From positions 1 to 20,299 of the IMG/VR virus record IMGVR_UViG_3300020438_002386: a stretch of 20,299 nt of DNA, one strand, 5' to 3'. Each line of letters begins with the position of its first letter. Positions within the stretch are counted from its first letter, which is position 1. Below the pieces are notes generated by a model that saw only the letters and a program-made list of their open reading frames with translations, had not been told where the DNA came from and did not search any database. Made by a program: the position numbers and the translations under genes. This DNA comes from a virus. Below, one piece after another: positions 276 through 11,595 of the stretch.

Positions 276-1265
276 TCATGTAATAATATCGAGTGAAGTT
301 TTATACTCCAACTCTAGTTCATACTCAATCATTTCACTCATCATAGATTCAAATGTATATGTCTCACTCCATCCGAGTTCTTCTCGTATTCTACTAGAGT
401 CACCCTTGAGATCCTTCAACTCCTCTGGACGATAAAACCTTGGATCAATTGTAACATAATCTTCATAGTTTAGTCCGAACGTAGAAAAAACTTGCTTGCA
501 GCAATCTCTCACGCTATGAGAAACACCAGTGGAACACACATAGTCCTCGGGTGAATCCTGTTGAAGCATCATCCACATAGCGTTGACATAATCAGAAGCA
601 TGTCCCCAATCGCGGGTTGCCTCTAAGTTACCTAAACTGAGTTTGTCTTGTTTACCCATTGCGATGGCACAAGCACCCTTTACAATTTTACTAGTCACAA
701 AGTTAGATCCCCTTCGTGGAGACTCATGGTTAAATAGTATACCATTACTAACAAACATACCATAAGAATTTCTGTAGTTCCTAGAAATATTATACGAATA
801 AACCTTAGCACACCCGTAGGGACTCACTGGATTCATCGGTGTAGTTTCTCTTTGATACCCATCGTCGTCAATATTGTTTCCAAACATCTCAGATGAAGAT
901 GCTTGATAAATTTTAGATGTGGGTGAAACCAATCTACATGCCTCTAGAACATTTAAAGTTCCAAGGCCAGTTGTTAATCCTGTATAATAAGGCTGATCAA
1001 AACTGATTCTAACATGAGACTGTGCTGCAAGATTATAGATCTCGTCCGGTTGTACTTCCTTGATTACAGAAATCAAAGAAGATAGATCTGTCAGATCCCC
1101 ATAATGCAGATGTAAATAATTTCTAATATGATCAATTCGTGTTGTTTGATTCTCTGATACAGAATTTCTTTTTAGAATACCATGAACCTCATATCCCTTT
1201 TCGAGTAACAACTCTGCTAGATATGAACCATCTTGTCCATTAATACCTGTGATTAATGCTTTCAT
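276..1265 (-). CDS. gmd: GDP-mannose 4,6-dehydratase (Gmd)
   Basis: This enzyme converts GDP-D-mannose to GDP-4-keto-6-deoxy-D-mannose, the first step to GDP-L-fucose and related deoxysugars, in the cytoplasm. The 329-residue protein is a short-chain-dehydrogenase-type Rossmann enzyme. It has the NADP-binding glycine motif TGINGQDGSY (residues 6-15), the SSSEMFG segment (123-129) with catalytic Ser and Glu126, and the Tyr-x3-Lys pair in YGCAK (Tyr150, Lys154). NPVSPYGCAK and RDWGHASDYV are hallmarks of Gmd. The length is slightly below the roughly 345-370 residues usual in bacteria. The ATG at 1265 overlaps the fcl stop (ATGA) and has a GAGAGGTGAG Shine-Dalgarno, so the pair is translationally coupled. 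The product is the substrate of the neighbouring Fcl. Family identity is clear; the final sugar acceptor is unknown. Confidence 0.95.
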   Translation of the reverse strand: MKALITGINGQDGSYLAELLLEKGYEVHGILKRNSVSENQTTRIDHIRNYLHLHYGDLTDLSSLISVIKEVQPDEIYNLAAQSHVRISFDQPYYTGLTTGLGTLNVLEACRLVSPTSKIYQASSSEMFGNNIDDDGYQRETTPMNPVSPYGCAKVYSYNISRNYRNSYGMFVSNGILFNHESPRRGSNFVTSKIVKGACAIAMGKQDKLSLGNLEATRDWGHASDYVNAMWMMLQQDSPEDYVCSTGVSHSVRDCCKQVFSTFGLNYEDYVTIDPRFYRPEELKDLKGDSSRIREELGWSETYTFESMMSEMIEYELELEYKTSLDIIT

Positions 1266-2161
1266 TTTCTCACCTCTCCATAATTTTCATTAAAGTATTT
1301 TATGGTTTGTTCTAACCCAATTTCAATCGGAACAAATTTATAATTTGGTAAGAGGGACTTTAGTTTAGAGTTATCTGATGGTTTTCTTATTTGACCATCT
1401 AACTCACCATTATAGACTAAATTTCCGTCAAAGTCCATTCTCCATGCTATCTCTTGTGCTAGTGTTCCAATATTAATCTCTTCGTCGGGAGAAATAATAA
1501 GAGGCTCTGGATCATTATAATTTTCGAGAACCCATTGAACTATGTAACCAACATCTTTAGAGTAAATGAATTCCCTATACGCTTTACCAGTTCCCCATAT
1601 TTCAAAGTCACTGGCTGACCATTTTGCATTATGACATTTGTGTATGAGTGATGGAATAACATGTCCAGATTCTAAGTTGTAATTATCATCTGGTCCATAT
1701 ATGTTACATGGAATTACCGTTACGAAATTACAACCATACTGATCACGATAGGCTCTACTTTGGACTTCCAGCATTCTTTTTGCATATGCATATGCATAAT
1801 TAGAAGAATGTGGTTCGCCCAAGTGAATCTGATCTGTAGTTAAAGGATACACTGCATCATTTGGAAATACGCAAGTGGACATAAAAGAAACAACTTTTTG
1901 TACTCCTGTTTCTCTTGCAGCCTCTAGAATATTAGTATTCATCACCATATTGTCGTGATAAAATTCACCTAACTTTTCAGAGTTAGCCTTAATACCCCCA
2001 ACCTTTGCAGCACAATGAATAATAGAATCGATTCCATTATCGTCAATATAATCTACGATAGAACGATAGTCCATTAGATCTAGATCATGTTGCTGCGGTT
2101 TATAATCACTCTGGATAGTTGATCCAACAAGACCACTACCGCCTGTCACTAGTGTTTTCAT
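1262..2161 (-). CDS. fcl: GDP-L-fucose synthase (GDP-4-keto-6-deoxymannose epimerase/reductase)
   Basis: The product completes GDP-L-fucose synthesis by 3,5-epimerisation and NADPH-dependent reduction of the Gmd product. The 299-residue protein has the Rossmann motif TGGSGLVG (6-13), HCAAKVGGI (49-57), and the catalytic set expected for this family: Ser95 and Cys97 in MSTCVFP, and Tyr124/Lys128 in the YAYAK segment. PCNIYGPDDN follows, as in bacterial Fcl/WcaG. The start chosen is the ATG at 2161, because GGAG at 2170-2173 lies 8 bases upstream. A GTG two codons earlier (2167), overlapping the gp45 stop, is too close to that site. The gene is sandwiched between the clamp gene and gmd, and its stop overlaps the gmd start. 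Confidence in family is high; whether it modifies virion, DNA or host glycans is unknown. Confidence 0.93.
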   Translation of the reverse strand: MKTLVTGGSGLVGSTIQSDYKPQQHDLDLMDYRSIVDYIDDNGIDSIIHCAAKVGGIKANSEKLGEFYHDNMVMNTNILEAARETGVQKVVSFMSTCVFPNDAVYPLTTDQIHLGEPHSSNYAYAYAKRMLEVQSRAYRDQYGCNFVTVIPCNIYGPDDNYNLESGHVIPSLIHKCHNAKWSASDFEIWGTGKAYREFIYSKDVGYIVQWVLENYNDPEPLIISPDEEINIGTLAQEIAWRMDFDGNLVYNGELDGQIRKPSDNSKLKSLLPNYKFVPIEIGLEQTIKYFNENYGEVRK

Positions 2162-2163
2162 TA

Positions 2164-2862
2164 TCACTTCTCCGATGTTGAATCACTCTCCAGTGCAATC
2201 CAGTATGTGATGTCCTCGACATCATTCGTGAACTGACTTACCATCTGATCACTAACTTCAACTGTATATGTCCCCGGAAGAATCTTCAAACTATCTACCT
2301 TGAAGTAGAATGAATAAGAAGAAAGTGTATTATCTCCAACCGTACTCACTGTATATGTGTTGCTAGTAACATCACCCTTATCAGTAAGAACCAAAAGAAT
2401 TTCTTCACCCTCATCTGAATTAGTAATCTTCAGATCTGGAAGTTGAAGAACAGAAGAAGCCTTCATGAGTTCTGAAAGTTCTGATGAAGATAGATCAAAT
2501 TTAAGAACACTCTCTGGCATATTAACATCTCGGGGAGGTGTTGTAAGAAGAGTTGGTTCAGAATAATGATAAACTACCTGAGAAGTATTTGACTCATTAC
2601 TAATAACTACCTTACCATCATCGAATGTTAGATGTGGATCTGAGAAAAGGGACACTGTACCTAGAAACTTATGTAGATCCCAAATACCAAATTCTACGTC
2701 AAAGGTTTCTTCTACCTTAGCCTTACCCATAAGATTCTTCATGGGAGATACAGTACTAAGAGTGCTTCCGGGTTTAACCAGAATGTTAGAATTAATTGAC
2801 GCAAAGTTCTTTAGAACATCCATCGTTGATTTACTGAGTTTCATTGTTTCGCTTGTCATCAT
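2164..2862 (-). CDS. 45: DNA polymerase sliding clamp gp45
   Basis: This is the trimeric ring that tethers phage polymerase to DNA and, in T4, also acts as the mobile activator of late transcription with gp55 and gp33. The 232-residue protein closely matches the T4 clamp in length (228) and layout. MKLSKSTMDVLKNFASINSN opens it (residues 7-26), FDVEFGIWDLHKFLGTVSLF is in the first domain, and IALESDSTSEK closes it, resembling the T4 end VALEADSTHDF. AGGA at 2870-2873 is 7 bases from the first ATG (2862); MKLSK at 2844 is the start by analogy with T4, but it lacks a comparable site. It follows the 64-residue gene after 15 bases. The clamp loader should lie next, but fcl and gmd intervene. Confidence 0.92.
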   Translation of the reverse strand: MMTSETMKLSKSTMDVLKNFASINSNILVKPGSTLSTVSPMKNLMGKAKVEETFDVEFGIWDLHKFLGTVSLFSDPHLTFDDGKVVISNESNTSQVVYHYSEPTLLTTPPRDVNMPESVLKFDLSSSELSELMKASSVLQLPDLKITNSDEGEEILLVLTDKGDVTSNTYTVSTVGDNTLSSYSFYFKVDSLKILPGTYTVEVSDQMVSQFTNDVEDITYWIALESDSTSEK

Positions 2863-3072: not shown

Positions 3073-3927
3073 TTAAAATTCCTCGATACTCCCCATTAGA
3101 TTCTTTAACTTTCTTTCTATGAAATAGTTTAACAGATTAGATCTGTCTGGCGTCTCGCTAGTTTCAAAAGACTGAATTGATTCTTTAACGATATGATCTG
3201 GTACTTTACATAGATCAATTAGTGTTTCATTTCTATTCCAGTTTCTGGAATATGAACCCATATCAGATCCGTCAGTATACAAGTCATAAATCTCTTCAAA
3301 TCTTTTTGATGTTAATCTTTTTTGTCTCTTATCATCTGTTACAAATACATCATCGTCTGACAAAATATTAGGAACACCATCAGATGCATCTCCCCGAATA
3401 ATATGATCGAGCAAAAACATATTAGGTTTTTCACATACCAAATATTTCTTTTTGGTTGGACTGAATTGTTTGACAGTCGGAAACACTTGCAACTGCTGAA
3501 AATCTTTATCGTTAGAAACGATTAGAATATTCTCGATTTGATTGAACTCTTTGCACATAGCATAAATGATATCATCTGCTTCTGCTCTGTCTACCTTGAT
3601 ATTTTTATAAGGTAGATGTTTTTCTATATCACTTCTAACCGAATCCATTAGGTTATGGACTTCAGACCAATCTACATCTGATTTCTTTTGTGCCTTCTTT
3701 CGATTTGCCTTATACTCAGGAAAGAGGTCTTTCCTCCAGCAATTAGAAGAGTCGTGACATATTACTAGTTCACCAAATTCTCGCAAAAACTTAGTACGGT
3801 ATAGACGATAGGAATTGAGAACCATGTGTAGTAACATGTTTTCTTTTTCCGCCGGATCATCTATTCCTTGTTTTTCTAGTTGGAAAAAATTGGACAATAT
3901 TAGTTGGTTGTTATCTATTAAGATCAT
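3073..3927 (-). CDS. rnh: RNase H / 5'-3' exonuclease (T4 Rnh family)
   Basis: This FEN-1-like nuclease removes RNA primers and adjacent DNA from lagging-strand fragments. The 284-residue protein follows T4 RNase H along its length. It has LIDNNQLILSNF near the start with the first metal-binding Asp, WRKDLFPEYKANRKKAQ (basic arch region, around residues 64-80), DRAEADDIIYAM (acidic cluster), VSNDKDFQQLQ (Asp cluster), FSPTKKKYL, a GDASDGV helix-hairpin DNA-binding segment, and a C-terminus NLMGSIEEF like T4's LTNSINEF. No Shine-Dalgarno precedes ATG 3927. A sigma-70-type promoter ends only 6-7 bases upstream, so the mRNA may be leaderless. It lies in the replication operon directly before the small charged gene and the clamp. 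Confidence 0.92.
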   Translation of the reverse strand: MILIDNNQLILSNFFQLEKQGIDDPAEKENMLLHMVLNSYRLYRTKFLREFGELVICHDSSNCWRKDLFPEYKANRKKAQKKSDVDWSEVHNLMDSVRSDIEKHLPYKNIKVDRAEADDIIYAMCKEFNQIENILIVSNDKDFQQLQVFPTVKQFSPTKKKYLVCEKPNMFLLDHIIRGDASDGVPNILSDDDVFVTDDKRQKRLTSKRFEEIYDLYTDGSDMGSYSRNWNRNETLIDLCKVPDHIVKESIQSFETSETPDRSNLLNYFIERKLKNLMGSIEEF

Positions 3928-3933
3928 TATGTT

Positions 3934-3962
3934 ATTGTACTCTATTTGTATTCATAAGTCAA
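3934..3962 (-). promoter_or_regulatory. Sigma-70-type early promoter for RNase H
   Basis: On the minus strand the -35 hexamer TTGACT (3962-3957) and -10 hexamer TACAAT (3939-3934) are separated by 17 bases. The site fills the short gap between the 106-residue gene and RNase H. The predicted start of transcription (about 3928-3927) falls on the RNase H start codon. It is likely used by unmodified host RNA polymerase early in infection. Assigned by eye from consensus only. Confidence 0.6.
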
Positions 3963-4283
3963 TTACAAAGATATCCATTGCGAAGTATCTTCATCGATAA
4001 TATATTTATAAAGAGTTCCTGAAGACGTATCAAACCATTCGTCTCCTAGATTGGCGTTGGATGGAGCCGTATCTCCGGAAGTGAAATTCATTATTCTAGA
4101 CTCGTTTAACTTTTTCCAGCCTGCTCGTTCGCCTTGTTCTGGAGAATATCCCATAGTGTTTTTAATGGCGGAGTATAAAAATCCATCCTTAGAAACTTGA
4201 TCTCCTTCTTTATAGAGAACTAGTTTGCCGGAAGAGTCTTTCATAGACCATTCACCACGGGGATTGTTAATGTAGTCTGTCAC
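3963..4283 (-). CDS. Small tail-fibre-like / surface-binding hypothetical protein
   Basis: This 106-residue protein has two recognisable patches. The N-terminal half contains YKEGDQVSKDGFLYSAI and a spaced Trp, a pattern resembling small carbohydrate-binding modules on phage appendages. The C-terminal half contains GDTAPSNANLGDEWFDTSSG followed by a Tyr and terminal Trp, a repeat-like motif common in phage tail-fibre and neck-appendage proteins. The start is a GTG overlapping the preceding stop (GTGA); ribosome-binding signal is only a purine-rich run. An ATG at residue 14 is an alternative. Its position among replication genes is odd for a structural protein. Function is inferred from motif style, not a recognised family. 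Confidence 0.65.
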   Translation of the reverse strand: MTDYINNPRGEWSMKDSSGKLVLYKEGDQVSKDGFLYSAIKNTMGYSPEQGERAGWKKLNESRIMNFTSGDTAPSNANLGDEWFDTSSGTLYKYIIDEDTSQWISL

Positions 4284-5044
4284 TTAATTTTTTTCTTTCT
4301 CTTCTTTCGTGTGGCTTTCTTTTCTTGATGGAATTTATCACAATCAGATATCCATTCAATCAATGTTTTGTGCATCTTTTTAAGAACCACACGACCAACA
4401 TAGGAATACCCCTCGACAAGTTGGGGATCCTCTTTATTTATAGCAGATAGTAATTCGTCTGCCATTGGTTTCCAATATTCACCTATTCTCTTCACCTGTA
4501 CTGTTTTCACATTATTAGATTTTAACCAAGAGTACATCGAGAATGTTACCGTCTCTTTCTTGATTAAATGAGAAAGAGTATTGTCCCACTCTATTTCGAG
4601 TGCAGAAAGATATTCCTCAACCTGTTCATTAATATATTCTTGAACACTCTTCTTTGGGGGTGTAGATTCCTTTTTGATCTTACCATCGTGTAGGCACTTT
4701 TTGATGAATTTATCTAGAGGAGACTTTCTGTCTTCTCCTAAAACAGCACCCCGATCCATCATCCTAAAATATCTACCCTTATTACTAAAGAGTTTAACGG
4801 AGATTGTTTTTACATAAGAAACATCATCAGTAGAATAGTCATTGTTTACCAGATATTCTAGAGTCCATCTTTTTTCATCTCTTGGTGTAGAATTGTTTCT
4901 ATACCAAGAGAGTCCATTGTAGATGTGATCTTCATATCCATCCGCTTCATGATCCAAATGAGTATAATCGGCTTCTTTACCATAAGCCCTTTCAAACAAA
5001 TTTTTCTTGGATCTTTTCTTTTTTTGCACGGACAACCTCGCCAT
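4280..5044 (-). CDS. Conserved-looking hypothetical protein with basic termini
   Basis: I do not recognise a functional family for this 254-residue protein. It starts with a basic segment (VQKKKRSKKN), has a central aromatic region with DHIYNGLSWYRNN (about residues 39-51) and TLEYLVNND, a mid-part rich in lysine (KSPLDKFIKKCLHDGKIKKE), and ends in a strongly basic tail (ATRKKRKKKIK). It is predicted soluble, without signal peptide or membrane helices. The IYNGLxWY pattern is reminiscent of uncharacterised proteins in marine T4-like phages, from memory and unchecked. The ATG at 5044 has GAGGT about 9 bases upstream and lies 17 bases after the GSII stop. Basic ends suggest nucleic-acid contact, a weak inference. 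Confidence 0.75.
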   Translation of the reverse strand: MARLSVQKKKRSKKNLFERAYGKEADYTHLDHEADGYEDHIYNGLSWYRNNSTPRDEKRWTLEYLVNNDYSTDDVSYVKTISVKLFSNKGRYFRMMDRGAVLGEDRKSPLDKFIKKCLHDGKIKKESTPPKKSVQEYINEQVEEYLSALEIEWDNTLSHLIKKETVTFSMYSWLKSNNVKTVQVKRIGEYWKPMADELLSAINKEDPQLVEGYSYVGRVVLKKMHKTLIEWISDCDKFHQEKKATRKKRKKKIK

Positions 5045-5061: not shown

Positions 5062-6153
5062 TTATGTAGAAATTAGCATTTCTTGGTGAGACTTAGATAC
5101 AGCCTCTACCAAACTAGTTAAGCATTGATATGGATCCATGTTAGCAGAAGGTCTTCTATCTTCTAGATGCCCCTTACCATCCTTTACAATGGTTGCTAGG
5201 GGGATGCGAATAGAACAACCCCGGTCGGATTCACCCCAAGAGAAATCATTTATATGGGCAGTTTCGTGAACACCCGTCAAACGTCTCTCGTTACCTTCTC
5301 CGTAGTTGGAGATGCATTCTTTATGATCCTGTCCCATACCTTCACATAATACACGAAGATACTCCATATTGGAATCCTCTCTCATGAATTTTGTTGAAAA
5401 ATTTACATGAGCGCCGGATCCATTCCAATCGCCTTCTACAGGCTTTGGATCATACGAAATTGAAACATTAAATCTTTCTGAAATCATATCCAAGATATAT
5501 CGAGATAACCATAGGTGATCTGAAACTGTCATGGCATCACCCGCTCCAATCTGGTATTCCCATTGAGAAAGCATTACTTCGGCGTTTGTTCCCTCGAAAA
5601 GAAGATCCGCTCCCATACAAGCAATTGCGTGGTTATCACAAATCTCTCTTCCCTTTACCCTATCACTTCCCACACCGCAGTAGTATTTTCCTTGTTTTTC
5701 TGGATCATCTGGCCAAGCAAAAGGTGTGGTTCCATCTTTATTCATGATAGTATACTCTTGTTCGATACCGAACATCATACTCTTCTGTTTATTTTTTCTT
5801 AAAGTTAATTCCAACTTACTTCGTGTATTTGATTCATGTGGAGTTCCGTCCGGATTTAGAACCTGACAAAGTACAAGAAAAGAATTGATCTTAAATTTTT
5901 CTATAGGATTTTGTTTAACCGTAACAGGACGAATAATTAAATCACTATTACTACCTTCTGCTTGTCCAGTACTAGATCCATCGAAAGACCAATCTGGAAT
6001 AAGTGGTAGAATATCTTTCATTGATTTCAGTGAAGGTCTGCCTGTGTCATCGGTTTGGATAATATCCAATGAAGTGTACTTCGTTTTACTACGAGTGTTT
6101 TTAACTTTATTACCATCTAACCAAATATAATCTAACTTTACTTTTTGATTCAT
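5062..6153 (-). CDS. glnII: Type II glutamine synthetase (GSII)
   Basis: GSII makes glutamine from glutamate, ammonia and ATP. The 363-residue length fits the short GSII class (eukaryotes, rhizobia, actinomycetes), not the roughly 470-residue bacterial GSI. In order: DYIWLDG (8-14), the beta-grasp motif FDGSSTGQAEG (57-67), FGIEQEYT with Glu131/Glu133 metal ligands, YYCGVGSDR (157-165), AEVMLSQWEYQIG with Glu192 and Glu199, DWNGSGAHVNFSTK with His249, NYGEGNERRLTGVHE with Arg291 and Glu297, RGCSIRIP with Arg311/Arg316, and GHLEDRRPSANMDPY with Glu331. All expected active-site residues appear present, with no frameshift. The GSI adenylylation loop is absent. ATG 6153 has AAGGA 8 bases upstream and follows the methyltransferase stop by 3 bases. 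A metabolic gene acquired by phage is the likely reading; the donor is unknown. Confidence 0.96.
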   Translation of the reverse strand: MNQKVKLDYIWLDGNKVKNTRSKTKYTSLDIIQTDDTGRPSLKSMKDILPLIPDWSFDGSSTGQAEGSNSDLIIRPVTVKQNPIEKFKINSFLVLCQVLNPDGTPHESNTRSKLELTLRKNKQKSMMFGIEQEYTIMNKDGTTPFAWPDDPEKQGKYYCGVGSDRVKGREICDNHAIACMGADLLFEGTNAEVMLSQWEYQIGAGDAMTVSDHLWLSRYILDMISERFNVSISYDPKPVEGDWNGSGAHVNFSTKFMREDSNMEYLRVLCEGMGQDHKECISNYGEGNERRLTGVHETAHINDFSWGESDRGCSIRIPLATIVKDGKGHLEDRRPSANMDPYQCLTSLVEAVSKSHQEMLIST

Positions 6154-6156
6154 AAT

Positions 6157-7743
6157 CTAATCCTTTTGTTTCTTAAATACAAAAATTGGTTCATATTTTA
6201 AATATCTATCTTCTACCTTGCAGTAGTTTTTACATTTTGGAATACCATCTTCATCAACTCTATTCTGCCCCGGCATTGATTCCATAGCCATCTTTAGTGT
6301 GTATTGATATTCTAATCCAACTGATGCTAGTATATCAATTGAATCTTTTTCTAAAGGGAGATATTCTCCTTTAATTAAAAGATCTGCAATGTTCCACAGT
6401 AAATATCTTTCTGGTTTCAACCAAGCAGCACATGTTTGTAGAGTTGGTTTTAGAAAACCATCTCTCCAAGATTCATATGAAGATCCATACTTCTTGTATG
6501 ATTGGTTCTCATCCTCGCTGTATGCTTCTCTGTTGAAATATGGAGGAGATGTAAATATCAAGTCCACCTTACCTTTATACTTTTTAAAGTCTTCGTTGTG
6601 TTGAATTACTTCCGAACCGAGTTTAAAAAGTTGGTAACTGTTTGTTTTGGAAAAGAAAGGATTTCCTCTATAAGTCTCGGTGTTGTAAAAATCAGCGAGA
6701 TCAGAGTAGCGAGAGCGGCTATCATCGTCATGAAAATTATCAGGATTGGGATCAGTACCAATGTAATGAATGCTGCGATCATCGCGGCAGGCCATAGCAC
6801 CAAGTATGCGACCACCCCATCCAGACGACGGATCGTAGATATTAATTTCCTCTTGATCTTTGAATTCTTCTGTGAATCGCTCATACAAATATTTCGCTGT
6901 CATTGGTGGGAAATTAACCGCTGGTTGAATATACCCAATCCTAAAAGATTTAAACGCAGCGGGAAACACCCTGTTTCCCTTTTTATATATCCGTATAGAG
7001 TATACCTTATCATCCTCCATGTTGTCAACATCAAAAGTAGAGTAATGTCGATATGACATCTTATCTTTCCATTCTAAAACTTGTTCCTTCGTAAGTTGTA
7101 GAATATCTGATTGTTGAATCTGAAAGTATCCACTATTAAATCCTTCTCGGATTGCAACTTGCTCTAACATGAAATCATGTTCTTTAAACATCTCAGGACT
7201 ATTGAAGAAGGCCTTCATCCACTCTTCGCCACTTTCGACACTAACAATGCCATATTTTGTATCGTTCTTTATGGCAGAAAGAGCATGTGTGTAGAAAGAA
7301 TCTCTTCTTAGATGACGCATCGCACCCTTCACGACACGATCTAATCTCTCATCGTCTGCAACTAAATCATAAATTGAATAACCATTATCTGTATCGCTGT
7401 AGTTGATTCGTGTCTTGAACATGTTTGAGAACCACTGGTCCGCTTCTACACCGATTCTAACTTTGTTTATGATCACATCATCACCAACAGTAGACAATTC
7501 ATCTGTATGTGTAAACTTATGAACTGGATATTCTGATAGTTTATTGAATTGAGAAATAATGTCTTTCTCATTTTTCCCAGTTCTTGGAGGACATCCATTC
7601 TTGTCCCATGATTCTTGGATTGTTGATCTCATCTGTATAACCCAATCACGAAACTGGCTGGGATTCATCTCTAGAAGATCTTCAAATAACACATTCACTT
7701 CATGATCTATGACATGATCATTACGTTCATAAAAACTTTTCAT
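6157..7743 (-). CDS. DNA methyltransferase with TSPPY motif and long N-terminal domain
   Basis: This is a predicted S-adenosylmethionine-dependent amino-methyltransferase (N6-adenine or N4-cytosine). The 528-residue protein has the SAM-binding motif I IYDPSSGWGGR (302-312) followed downstream by the catalytic motif IV TSPPYF (398-403), an order shared by motif I-first DNA methylases. GTDPNP (329-334) fits the acidic residue that contacts SAM. About 300 residues precede the catalytic core and are not recognised; they may select the target site or partner. FRIGYIQPAVNFPP (267-280) links the two halves. The ATG overlaps the gp46 stop by one base (TAATG) and has AGGAT upstream. No restriction endonuclease lies beside it, so a role in protecting phage DNA or regulation is more likely than a complete restriction-modification system. 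Confidence 0.88.
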   Translation of the reverse strand: MKSFYERNDHVIDHEVNVLFEDLLEMNPSQFRDWVIQMRSTIQESWDKNGCPPRTGKNEKDIISQFNKLSEYPVHKFTHTDELSTVGDDVIINKVRIGVEADQWFSNMFKTRINYSDTDNGYSIYDLVADDERLDRVVKGAMRHLRRDSFYTHALSAIKNDTKYGIVSVESGEEWMKAFFNSPEMFKEHDFMLEQVAIREGFNSGYFQIQQSDILQLTKEQVLEWKDKMSYRHYSTFDVDNMEDDKVYSIRIYKKGNRVFPAAFKSFRIGYIQPAVNFPPMTAKYLYERFTEEFKDQEEINIYDPSSGWGGRILGAMACRDDRSIHYIGTDPNPDNFHDDDSRSRYSDLADFYNTETYRGNPFFSKTNSYQLFKLGSEVIQHNEDFKKYKGKVDLIFTSPPYFNREAYSEDENQSYKKYGSSYESWRDGFLKPTLQTCAAWLKPERYLLWNIADLLIKGEYLPLEKDSIDILASVGLEYQYTLKMAMESMPGQNRVDEDGIPKCKNYCKVEDRYLKYEPIFVFKKQKD

Positions 7744-9455
7744 TACTTTATCCTGCTAAAGTTATTCTTCTTTTCAAACTTAATCTGTCCAGAAAATTTA
7801 TCAATTAACTGATCTGACTTGTGACTAATCACAAATATATTTGATCTGTTACCCATTGTCGTAATCAATTTCATGAACTCTTCAGTTCCACCACCATCTA
7901 AACTTGAATCAAAAACTTCATCTAGTATGAGAAGATTACAATTAACACTATTCTTTAGTCTTGCTACCTCTCTCCATGCGAGAAGCAACGACAAGTCAAT
8001 ACGCAGTCGCTCACCTTCACTGAAACTGTGATATGTAAATTCATCTCTATGTCTGCTCTTTATTGTCTCATTGAAAGTTTCATCTAAACTAAACTGACAG
8101 AAGAAATCCATAGAGGTAAGAAACTTGTTTACTAGTTTATTCATGATGGGAAGATAGTGTTTGATAATCTTTGATTTGATTCCACTATCTTTTAGAAGAA
8201 CCGAAACTATATCATATTGATACATCTCTTCTTTTTTCTCCTGATGATCAGTTACCTTTTCTGTACCCTGTTCAATAAGATCTAAAAGAATAGATTCCTC
8301 CTCAGAAGACTCTGGTGTTTCTTTCTCAACATCATCCACTTTCTTCTTCATAGTATTTACATACTTTTCATGAGCATTCTTAGAAGACTGGAGTTCGTTT
8401 ACTTTTTCTTGCATTTTACTACACTGGGTTATGAGTGCCTCTGCATCGCTGATCATGCCCATATAGTCGTTGATCTGTTGATCCATAGAAATCAATGCAC
8501 CGTCGAGTGGTTGCTTTTCTTTTTCATTCTTTTCAATCAAAGAATCTTTGTGTTTATGTTCTATTGGTTGATCACACGTTGGACATACATTATTGTTCTC
8601 ATAAAAATCAATCTGATCATTTATCTTTTTTATCTTAGAAGACATCTGAGTTCGTAAATCTTTATACTTGTCCATAGTCTTTTGTAGAGTTTTTTTATTT
8701 TGAGTATTCTTGGTTAGACTACTAATAGAATCGCTCAGAACTAAAATTTGATTCTCTATTTCTTTGATTTCATTTTGTGTTTCTTTAATATCTAAGTTGT
8801 ATTTTTCAACAGTAGTCTTAGATCTATTCTTAATTTTTTCTATGTACTTCTTCTGGTTATCTACTTTGTCTTTTAGTAACTCGACTTCATTTTTTAAAGA
8901 CTGTATTTCTTCTTTGCATTTAGAAACTCTACCTTTAAGTAATGAGTTCATCACAGAAAAAACATCAATATCCAATAAATTTTCAACTACCGATCTTCTA
9001 TCTGCTGCGGTTAGTTTCATGAAAGGTATATAATTAGATGATCCCAAAATAACCACTTGACAAAATGACTTGTAAGTCATCTTTAGAATTCTTTCTTCTA
9101 GAATGCGTTGATAATCTTTTGATTTAGAATCCTGTGGTAGAAGTTCCCCATCAACGTATACTTCAAATAGTTTTGGTTTGAGTCCACGTTTAACTAGGTA
9201 TTCCTTTTCTCCGATAGTAAACTCAATTTCTACTATGCAGTTTTTATCATTAACACTATTCACAAGTTGCGGTATGTTAATACCACGAAAAGATTTTCCA
9301 AACAAAGCAAACGTCAAAGCATCGAGCATAGTAGATTTACCTGCTCCGTTTTCTCCTGATACTAAAGTAGTATCACGTTTCACTAAATCTAATTTAGTGA
9401 ATACATTTCCAGTGGAAAGAAAGTTTTTCCAACGTAATGTTTTAAAAACTATCAA
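7743..9455 (-). CDS. 46: Recombination endonuclease subunit gp46 (Rad50/SbcC-like ATPase)
   Basis: gp46 is the SMC-like ATPase partner of gp47; together they degrade host DNA and process ends for recombination-dependent replication. The protein has LRWKNFLSTGN near its start, Walker A GENGAGKST (34-42), long coiled-coil arms split by a zinc hook CPTC (Cys291/Cys294), then signature SFSEGERLR and Walker B LLILDEVFD near the C-terminus. I chose a TTG start at 9455. It overlaps the upstream stop as TTGA, gives 570 residues against 560 in T4, and aligns the N-terminus with T4 gp46. An ATG at 9512 with a weak AGG would add 19 residues and overlap the upstream gene by 61 bases. The downstream methyltransferase start touches its stop. 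Family is certain; start is probable. Confidence 0.94.
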   Translation of the reverse strand: MIVFKTLRWKNFLSTGNVFTKLDLVKRDTTLVSGENGAGKSTMLDALTFALFGKSFRGINIPQLVNSVNDKNCIVEIEFTIGEKEYLVKRGLKPKLFEVYVDGELLPQDSKSKDYQRILEERILKMTYKSFCQVVILGSSNYIPFMKLTAADRRSVVENLLDIDVFSVMNSLLKGRVSKCKEEIQSLKNEVELLKDKVDNQKKYIEKIKNRSKTTVEKYNLDIKETQNEIKEIENQILVLSDSISSLTKNTQNKKTLQKTMDKYKDLRTQMSSKIKKINDQIDFYENNNVCPTCDQPIEHKHKDSLIEKNEKEKQPLDGALISMDQQINDYMGMISDAEALITQCSKMQEKVNELQSSKNAHEKYVNTMKKKVDDVEKETPESSEEESILLDLIEQGTEKVTDHQEKKEEMYQYDIVSVLLKDSGIKSKIIKHYLPIMNKLVNKFLTSMDFFCQFSLDETFNETIKSRHRDEFTYHSFSEGERLRIDLSLLLAWREVARLKNSVNCNLLILDEVFDSSLDGGGTEEFMKLITTMGNRSNIFVISHKSDQLIDKFSGQIKFEKKNNFSRIK

Positions 9456-10015
9456 TTTAGTACTGCTTCCTGTTCCTGATTCCACCAAGTTGGAATATTT
9501 CCATCTTTCCATTTTGCAAACCTAGTCTTCTCTCCAAGATAGTATGCACGGTATGCTTCTACTGCATCAGAATTTTTGTATTCTTCAGGCATTGCTTGTG
9601 CGAATGGTGTGATAGAATTTGCAATTGCAATATTTGCAGGTTTACGATATCGAATAAGAGATATCATATCATCTGTCTTATGAACTTTACCATATCGACG
9701 AGTGTATTCTCTGCATAGTTCATATGCATGTTCTGCTAACCAGTAATAGTTTTTATTGTTTTCCATTACCCACTTGGTACATGGGTGTCCAACAAATGAT
9801 GCTTTGTATAGAATATCTTCCATCAACTTGTATGGTGACTTCCATCTTTTTATTCGACGATTGTTTGCAGACAACTCCGTATACTGTTCTCCATCTAGAA
9901 CACGATGTGCAGTAGACAGCATCTGAGCCGACTCTACAATCATTTTAACAACGTGCTTATCACACATCATCTGAGCGGCGGTTGTTGGTTTTTTATCCAA
10001 TACAAAAATATTCAC
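9452..10015 (-). CDS. Unknown protein encoded between gp47 and gp46
   Basis: No functional family is recognised for this 187-residue soluble protein. It begins MNIFVLDKKPTTAAQMMCDK, then HVVKMIVESAQMLSTAHR, and is rich in aromatic, His and Cys residues. Features include CDKHVVKM (18-25), HPCTKWV, NYYWLAEHAYELCREYTRRYG, and a C-terminal KWKDGNIPTWW. A similar opening occurs in uncharacterised proteins of marine T4-like phages (memory, unchecked). It starts at a GTG overlapping the gp47 stop (GTGA) with GGAGAG about 9 bases upstream, and its own stop overlaps the proposed gp46 TTG. This tight triple coupling suggests co-translation with the Mre11/Rad50-type nuclease and perhaps a role with it. 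Conserved Cys/His residues could bind metal, which is inference. Confidence 0.82.
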   Translation of the reverse strand: MNIFVLDKKPTTAAQMMCDKHVVKMIVESAQMLSTAHRVLDGEQYTELSANNRRIKRWKSPYKLMEDILYKASFVGHPCTKWVMENNKNYYWLAEHAYELCREYTRRYGKVHKTDDMISLIRYRKPANIAIANSITPFAQAMPEEYKNSDAVEAYRAYYLGEKTRFAKWKDGNIPTWWNQEQEAVLN

Positions 10016-11052
10016 AGCGACAAACTCTCCATATAAAGATCACTTATTAGTTTTTTGATTTCGTCTTTCTTGTCTGTTTCTAACGAATCTATTTCTTCGT
10101 GTATAAGTGTAACAGTATCTTTCGCCATGTCAACCATTTCTTCTTTAGATTCCTCTACTAACTCTTCCATGATTGTTAAGTTAGCCACGTTTGCTTTGTA
10201 GAAGTTATCTATAAAGAGATCAAACAAGAAAGGCTGTGTTTTCTTGTGTACCATTATCTTTACATAACATCCTTCGTATCTAGAGAAATCAAAGTCTCTC
10301 CAATCATGAACTCCGGTGTCGTTATAATCAACTGCATGAAACATGATATTTGGATTTTCGATGAAGTTTAGGCTTCTATCTTTGGTATCTAATACATGGA
10401 ATCCTTTAACTTCACCGAGATCTGAGAATGTTATTTGATATTGTGTTCCTAGATAATGAATATTGTTTTTTGACTGTCTTCCGTGAAAATGACCAGACAT
10501 TACCATTTCATAATTTTTGAAAATAGAATCGTCTATACCACCATCAAACTTAACCCCTCGTATTACTTCATACCCAGTCAGTTCAAAATGACCACCTAAG
10601 ATTGGGCATGGACATGATTTAATAAAGTCTACACACTCATCTGTATTTTCTGTTGTTAACCACGGAACCAAACCAACACACAATCCTTCAAAATCCAACA
10701 CAGTTGGTTTATCGACTATATTAAATCCTTCATACTTTGAGAATAGTTCTATCAAAGAATTTACATCGTTTGTGTTGCGATAGTAGGTATCGTGATTACC
10801 CAACACACAATGAAGTTTTATTCCCATTGTTTCTAATGGTTCTATGATTCGGGTTCTAACTCGATTCAGTGTATTGAAGTTTACAAATTTACGCCTATCC
10901 ATAAAGTCACCAAGATGAATGACATCAGATATATCATTCTTCTGGACATATGGAAAGAAAACCTCATCAAAAAACTTGAAGAAGTAATCTAAAAATTCTT
11001 TTTGATCGTTTCTTGCACCGAAGTGTGTGTCATTTATGACAGCAATTTTCAT
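10012..11052 (-). CDS. 47: Recombination nuclease subunit gp47 (Mre11/SbcD-like)
   Basis: gp47 is the metallophosphoesterase nuclease that pairs with gp46. The 346-residue protein (T4: 339) shows all calcineurin-like motifs in order: DTH with Asp8 and His10, GDFMDRR with Asp49, GNHD (85-88), GGHFE with His155, and SGHFHGRQ with His188 and His190. These would coordinate the two catalytic manganese ions. The C-terminal part, rich in Glu/Lys helices, is the likely gp46-binding region. The ATG at 11052 follows the gp55 stop by 3 bases with only a weak purine-rich ribosome site (GTAAG), so coupling to gp55 translation is likely. The next gene starts within its stop codon. Confidence 0.95.
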   Translation of the reverse strand: MKIAVINDTHFGARNDQKEFLDYFFKFFDEVFFPYVQKNDISDVIHLGDFMDRRKFVNFNTLNRVRTRIIEPLETMGIKLHCVLGNHDTYYRNTNDVNSLIELFSKYEGFNIVDKPTVLDFEGLCVGLVPWLTTENTDECVDFIKSCPCPILGGHFELTGYEVIRGVKFDGGIDDSIFKNYEMVMSGHFHGRQSKNNIHYLGTQYQITFSDLGEVKGFHVLDTKDRSLNFIENPNIMFHAVDYNDTGVHDWRDFDFSRYEGCYVKIMVHKKTQPFLFDLFIDNFYKANVANLTIMEELVEESKEEMVDMAKDTVTLIHEEIDSLETDKKDEIKKLISDLYMESLSL

Positions 11053-11055
11053 AAC

Positions 11056-11595
11056 TTACTTCTTACCCTTTTTCTTTTTCTTTGGAGTAAACTTCTGAAT
11101 ATCTGCATCAGATAAATTGAAATGTTTAGTCATGGTGTCTGGTAATTCTTCAGAACTCTTTTCAAAATAATTAGACTTGAACCACTTATTTACTGCCGCA
11201 TCAGGAGACTGTTCTAACATCTTGTACTTCACATATGATTGCTTCTTTTCTTTTTCGATTCTTCTTAAGAATGCATAATATATTATCTGGGTGAAATATG
11301 AAAATGGATTCTTTGATTTTTCTGGATCAAAATTATGTGCGTACATTAAGCAGTTTTCAATACCATCTCCAACCATCTCTTCTCTGTATGGATAGTTTAT
11401 AAAGTTTGGTTTGTGTGATAGGTGTTCTGCTATCTTAACAAAACAATCTCCAATGTATTCTGAAATAGGAGGTCTTCCTTCACCTACGTTCTCTGCTTCT
11501 ATTACATTCTTTTTCCATTCTTTCATTGCTTCAAAAAAATCAGCATTGACTATGTAATGGTTTTTAGTGTCTTTTGGTTTTTCTTTTTCTTCCAT
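11056..11595 (-). CDS. 55: Late-transcription sigma factor gp55
   Basis: gp55 is the minimal sigma factor that directs host RNA polymerase to TATAAATA late promoters, with the gp45 clamp as activator. The 179-residue protein (T4: 185) shares with T4 gp55 the N-terminal ADFFEAMKEWKKNV, then EEMVGDGIENCLMYAHNFDPEKSKNPFSYFTQIIYYAFLRRI, interrupted here only for quotation: the GDGIE (about 81-85), HNFD (92-95) and KNP segments correspond to T4 ADGIE, HNFD and KNP. The C-terminus ends in a basic tail (TPKKKKKGKK) instead of the hydrophobic/acidic clamp-binding end (SLDFLYE) of T4. ATG 11595 has AGGA 9 bases upstream. Three to four matching late promoters occur in this window. Identity is strong. 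Confidence 0.92.
   Translation of the reverse strand: MEEKEKPKDTKNHYIVNADFFEAMKEWKKNVIEAENVGEGRPPISEYIGDCFVKIAEHLSHKPNFINYPYREEMVGDGIENCLMYAHNFDPEKSKNPFSYFTQIIYYAFLRRIEKEKKQSYVKYKMLEQSPDAAVNKWFKSNYFEKSSEELPDTMTKHFNLSDADIQKFTPKKKKKGKK

Follow-up and report, generated by a model that had tools for sequence, protein, structure and literature searches.

What does a small gene do when it lies between the two subunits of a phage recombination nuclease and overlaps both of them? The window considered here, the whole 20,299-nucleotide stretch of viral DNA (IMG/VR record IMGVR_UViG_3300020438_002386), belongs to a T4-like myovirus by its major capsid protein, the best matches being Methylophilales phages (Melnitz, 61% identity). 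Its replication region contains the following features:

11056 to 11595, minus strand: gene 55-like late sigma factor, upstream neighbour of gene 47
10012 to 11052, minus strand: gene 47, Mre11/SbcD-like nuclease (phrog_100, 319.5 bits; PF00149)
10025 to 10030, minus strand: GGAGAG, Shine-Dalgarno-like, 9 nt 5' of the GTG start (read from the sequence)
10012 to 10015, minus strand: GTGA overlap of the gp47 stop and the ORF start (read from the sequence)
9452 to 10015, minus strand: the ORF, GTG start, a 187-aa Pyr_excise-like protein of the phrog_624 family (ORF list and profile matches)
9452 to 9455, minus strand: TTGA overlap of the ORF stop and the likely gp46 start (read from the sequence)
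7743 to 9455, minus strand: gene 46, Rad50/SbcC-like ATPase (phrog_77, 583.6 bits), TTG start favoured over ATG at 9512
6157 to 7743, minus strand: DNA methylase-like gene (PF01555, 28.1 bits), immediately following gene 46, with synteny in many relatives

The same region includes a glutamine synthetase gene (5062-6153, minus strand; PF00120 and PF03951), for which the PHROG match is distant (phrog_21628). Elsewhere, the stretch 276-2167 (minus strand), between the clamp gene 45 (2164-2862) and a clamp-loader-like gene (2-268), encodes a GDP-mannose 4,6-dehydratase and another epimerase that by eye resembles a fucose synthase.

The gene and its junctions

The original prediction placed the ORF between Mre11-like and Rad50-like genes, coupled to both, and the profile matches listed above confirm its neighbours. 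The two overlaps are read directly from the sequence, and both recur in relatives. Among 25 relatives in which gp47 and gp46 adjoin the ORF, the gp47/ORF overlap is 4 nt in 24; the ORF/gp46 junction is a 4-nt TTG or ATG overlap in 19, 8 nt in two and a 433-nt gap in four. This double coupling is kept in proteins down to about 50% identity, so the three-gene arrangement that had been proposed is conserved over a diverged clade. A gp46 start at ATG 9512 was considered and rejected: at least six of the 25 relatives (L005, L009, L010, L013, L014 and L015) have a stop codon within this frame, which, together with the retained TTG/ATG overlap, supports the TTG start first suggested. In three relatives (L009, L010 and L011; records G013, G014 and G015), the gp46 match comes in two separate pieces, which would fit a frameshift, an insertion or a break in the assembly.

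The ORF is a real gene under purifying selection (dN/dS 0.026/0.45 against relative L002 and 0.086/0.68 against L003). Its description as Cys/His/Trp-rich holds in a mild form: three Cys, five His and six Trp make up 7.5% of the protein, the highest value among the 22 window genes tabulated (next 6.6%), but the cysteines form no conserved metal cluster. Residue conservation was counted over 106 non-redundant rows, obtained from 159 by a 95% identity filter; dropped from the first set of relatives were the window itself (L001) and two loci cut by contig ends (L042 and L062). In these rows Cys18 is present in just 89, and no Cys occurs in the columns kept at 97% or more, so a zinc-binding Cys/His protein was rejected as a candidate.

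Profile, fold and conserved residues

The sequence had been said to give no function, but it does point to one at the level of the superfamily. The ORF protein scores 42.2 bits with the Pfam profile PF03013 (Pyr_excise, pyrimidine dimer DNA glycosylase) over profile positions 1-78 of 81, above the curated cut-off of 23 that defines membership; T4 DenV reaches 53.3 bits with it (positions 1-77). Of five bacterial homologues tested, two fall just under this cut-off (20.5 and 21.0), and a distant phage member, ctfzr, had no PF03013 match. At E <= 1 the ORF protein matches phrog_624 alone among PHROGs ("DNA binding protein"; 214.2 bits, residues 1-182), while T4 DenV matches phrog_1183, a profile to which the ORF protein has no match at that threshold.

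Other comparisons add little. A PDB search with the ORF protein gave no match, and one with the family profile gave chance matches only (best E 0.2, cytochrome oxidase subunit 6B); the NCBIfam search did not help in identifying the family. Alignment of the family to DenV by hhalign is insignificant alone (probability 0.2%, E 0.28, 23 columns). Pfam profile aside, the sequence evidence for kinship with DenV is thus modest to weak. In the same comparisons T4 DenV matched phrog_11903, the family to which the window gene at 4280-5044 belongs as well, at E 0.17; this was taken as chance.

Predicted structures point in the same direction as Pfam. An AlphaFold2 model of the ORF protein, built on 42 sequences (pLDDT 92.7), was compared by VIA-align with Foldseek's 630 candidates, 625 of which were aligned. 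The top three were all T4 endonuclease V (Z 8.5, 8.4 and 8.3; rmsd 3.6, 3.6 and 3.5; 118, 115 and 119 aligned of 137 residues), the next row having Z 3.2, and Met1 of the model was placed at chain residue 2 of the T4 enzyme. A second model, of a relative 52% identical (L156; 64 sequences, pLDDT 93.0), again matched T4 endonuclease V best (Z 8.6, 8.6 and 8.4; 117 aligned; next 3.9). In the Foldseek search of the PDB itself neither model had a match at E <= 0.001. Both models suggest a T4 endonuclease V-like fold, a Z of 8.5 for a helical fold not being proof: middling Z values are common for helical proteins, so the assignment rests on profile, fold and residues combined.

The residues concerned are encoded as follows:

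10010 to 10015, minus strand: Met1 (GTG) and Asn2, aligned in the model with T4 Thr2; Asn2 in 106/106
9953 to 9961, minus strand: Asp19-Lys20-His21, aligned with T4 Asp14-Gln15-His16
9932 to 9934, minus strand: Glu28, aligned with the catalytic Glu23 of T4 endonuclease V; 106/106
9782 to 9787, minus strand: His77-Pro78; 106/106
9695 to 9709, minus strand: Glu103 to Arg107, aligned with T4 Glu77 and Arg81
9482 to 9493, minus strand: Pro175-Thr-Trp-Trp178, aligned with T4 Pro126-Thr-Trp-Tyr129

Invariant in all 106 rows are Met1 (counted as methionine where the start codon is GTG or TTG), Asn2, Asp19, His21, Lys24, Glu28, Gln31, His77, Pro78, Trp82, Arg107 and His112. MAFFT, hhalign and a profile merge all agree on the register that places His21 on T4 His16 and Glu28 on Glu23, so the active-site glutamate of Pyr_excise and its companion histidine are present in every row. 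The merge, once the T4 numbering allows for a single trimmed column, also pairs Glu103 with Glu77, Arg107 with Arg81 and Pro175 with Pro126; among columns conserved at 95% or more in both sets of rows, six carry the same residue (D, H, E, E, R, P), a result equalled in two of 60 column shuffles. In the C-terminal Pro-x-Trp-aromatic motif, Trp177 is kept in 100 of the 106 rows and position 178 is Phe, Tyr or Trp in 97; the T4 counterparts Trp128 and Tyr129 are found in 41 of 41 DenV rows.

The closest described protein is accordingly T4 endonuclease V, or T4 pyrimidine dimer glycosylase (DenV; PF03013, phrog_1183; PDB 2END), which shares the Pfam profile over its whole length, provides the best-matching fold and has the same register of His16/Glu23, Glu77/Arg81 and Pro126-x-Trp-aromatic. 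It differs in its N-terminus: the ORF protein begins Met-Asn-Ile-Phe, T4 DenV Met-Thr-Arg-Ile. Thr2, Arg3, Gln15 and Arg22 are each present in 41/41 DenV rows, whereas the family has Met1/Asn2, Lys20 and Val27 instead; the ORF protein has in addition an extra beta-hairpin (residues 43-59) and a longer C-terminal half, and falls in phrog_624 rather than phrog_1183. The Thr2-Arg3 hallmark being replaced by Met-Asn in 106 of 106 rows, the family is best placed as a sister branch and not as a DenV, and these replacements suggest that its lesion or chemistry may differ. Assignment to Pyr_excise is already in Pfam; the N-terminus is the unusual part.

Distribution and gene neighbourhood

Of 50,697 phage records, 597 contain the family, and 316 of these bear the name Synechococcus, Prochlorococcus or Cyanophage. 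Most of the listed rows carry the annotation "hypothetical" or "DNA binding protein", and some records already have "putative endonuclease V" or "pyrimidine dimer DNA glycosylase"; the same phrog_624 family includes cyanophage T4-GC 147 (PSSM4_127, PSSM2_151) and an Acinetobacter phage "putative endonuclease V". Pseudomonas phage PaBG has a family gene unannotated in its record (L169, 3001-3423). A jumbo-phage survey (PMC7824862) reports T4 endonuclease V-type glycosylases in part of its subgroup 2.2, which includes PaBG. Alteromonas phage R7M ORF11, a predicted pyrimidine dimer glycosylase (PMC8265664), also matches PF03013 (50.4 bits); it was rejected as an earlier description of the family, since it lies on the phrog_1183 side, begins MRTW and gives just 19 bits by BLASTP to the ORF protein.

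Is the place between genes 47 and 46 a property of the family? On a tree of the 106 rows, 24 are labelled between 47 and 46, six near one of them, 41 away and 35 on contigs too short. All 24 fall inside one supported clade of 41 rows (96/94); outside it none of 65 is between (30 away, three near, 32 on contigs too short to tell). The neighbourhood is thus conserved in one clade and not family-wide, other phrog_624 members usually lying elsewhere. In the records of L018, L025 and L052 about 52-90 kb separate the gene from 46/47, and in Mosig, Melnitz and Berthold it lies far from gp46; the record scan behind the former distances, and behind the split gp46 matches above, covered 42 of 80 loci, mostly longer contigs. 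Some members have a C-terminal extension, as in Vibrio phage River4 (L170, 3001-4041), where a SAP-domain match is weak and under cut-off (13.6 bits) and phrog_4328 also matches.

Cyanophages show a looser arrangement. The gene was found in 10 of 15 records searched, three of the 15 having been chosen as carriers. In the nine carriers with detectable gp46 it is 3.3-6.6 kb downstream in eight and 22 kb away in S-SSM4; in P-SSM4 it sits between gp45 and gp44, with an ATGA overlap with gp45. That homologues might lie mostly away from 46/47 had been named at the outset as counting against a role with that nuclease: across the family this is largely the case, while an association at the level of the module stays. 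The gene behaves as a mobile repair gene, often settling in replication/repair modules, with a fixed 47/46 coupling in one clade.

In bacterial and archaeal genomes 140 related stretches were found, of which 80 were kept. Carriers include named isolates of Moraxella, Nitrosomonas marina and Marinobacterium, and several SAR86 single-cell genomes; some contigs from MAGs or single cells may belong to phages. Genes 46/47 were within reach in one of the 80 loci. A Bacteroidetes MAG (L317, 337-4534) has gp47- and gp46-like genes followed within 1 kb by the family gene, and is possibly a binned phage contig. In three closely related SAR86 loci (L305, L307 and L310, near 3434-4495) an O6-methylguanine methyltransferase gene lies two genes upstream of the chromosomal family member, and a DUF6356 gene also adjoins it. 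A literature search on SAR86 and PDG found nothing.

The family and T4-type DenV were never found together in the records tested, a small, hand-picked sample. A search of 12 phages with the single T4 DenV protein found T4 only and none of 11 family carriers; the phrog_1183 profile matches T4 and KVP40, both lacking phrog_624, and none of 15 further records. A set of 12 phages that we take to be part of the Sullivan et al. collection has phrog_624 in seven and phrog_1183 in none. Sullivan et al. (2010; PMC3037559) list denV for 13 of 16 cyanophages and for none of the non-cyanophages; five absences of phrog_624 exceed their three, so their denV cluster, as described there, would not simply be phrog_624, or thresholds differ. 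A 2010 review (PMC2984593), on the other hand, has denV in no cyanophage genome and another mechanism as likely, and an ocean-sampling paper (PMC1821046) reports new DenV diversity in seawater. The literature searches made here found no biochemical test of any family member.

Proposed function and its alternatives

Taken jointly, the evidence makes it probable that the ORF encodes a lesion glycosylase/lyase, the lesion probably being a UV dimer, which would use the amine of Met1 and Glu28 and be co-expressed with gp47 and gp46 without forming a complex with them. The predicted enzyme would flip or grip a damaged base and cut its glycosidic bond, probably on one side of a UV pyrimidine dimer, and the strand would then be nicked via a Schiff base on the enzyme's own N-terminal amine, with Glu28 as acid/base. 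Which amine would this be? Asparagine at position 2 normally prevents removal of the initiator methionine, so Met1 should be retained and would carry the amine, where T4 uses Thr2. For T4 endonuclease V, PMC3285167 describes a Schiff base formed by the amine of the processed N-terminal threonine, with a glutamate as acid/base. Incision at lesions on replicating phage DNA could feed breaks or gaps into the gp46/47 recombination-replication pathway, which we propose as the reason for making the three proteins together; the coupling would then reflect co-expression within a replication/repair module and no fixed complex.

An alternative, the one originally proposed, is that the protein assists or regulates the gp46/gp47 nuclease-ATPase, binding the complex or DNA ends and modulating resection. 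Tight coupling on both sides, kept to about 50% identity, the PHROG label and the cyanophage copies, which likewise often lie a few kb from gp46, would fit such a protein, but beyond the shared operon neither fold nor sequence links it to Mre11-Rad50 accessory factors. With the 47/46 arrangement confined to one clade, the gene distant from gp46 in Mosig, Melnitz, Berthold and the records of L018, L025 and L052, coupled to gp45 in P-SSM4 and present on bacterial chromosomes without 46/47, adjacency loses its value as a pointer, and fold and motif already explain an independent enzyme; we regard an accessory role as improbable. Still slimmer is the chance that the protein is an endonuclease V relative which binds DNA but has lost catalysis. 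Thr2, the source of the nucleophile in T4, is missing in 106/106 rows and the PHROG name is merely "DNA binding protein", but invariant Glu28 and His21 would be unusual for a dead enzyme, and Met1, modelled at the Thr2 position, could supply an amine.

More serious, though in our view unlikely, is a Pyr_excise-fold glycosylase/AP lyase acting on something other than cyclobutane dimers: a base altered by oxidation, alkylation or phage modification, or AP sites as such. Replacement of Gln15, Arg22 and Thr2-Arg3 would fit this, as would the family's own invariants (Asn2, Lys24, Gln31, His77, Trp82 and His112), the DNA methylase gene downstream of gp46 in the window and the O6-methylguanine methyltransferase gene close by in the three SAR86 genomes. 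Against it, the Glu, His and C-terminal aromatic residues are retained, and many hosts are sunlit-ocean organisms or phages.

A broader and more doubtful extension of the glycosylase/lyase reading is that the family forms a second, little-recognised endonuclease V-type lineage with the amine of a retained, deformylated Met1 as nucleophile, carried by DenV-less marine phages and some bacteria of the sunlit ocean, SAR86 among them, and translationally coupled to whichever replication-recombination operon is available (47/46 in the window, 45/44 in P-SSM4). A formylated Met1 could not act, so activity would depend on peptide deformylase if the Met1 reading is true; some marine phages carry this enzyme. 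In sunlit waters phages must be able to repair UV dimers in the dark, and a widespread DenV-like family is a candidate for doing so, one whose Met-Asn N-terminus predicts which amine serves as the nucleophile.
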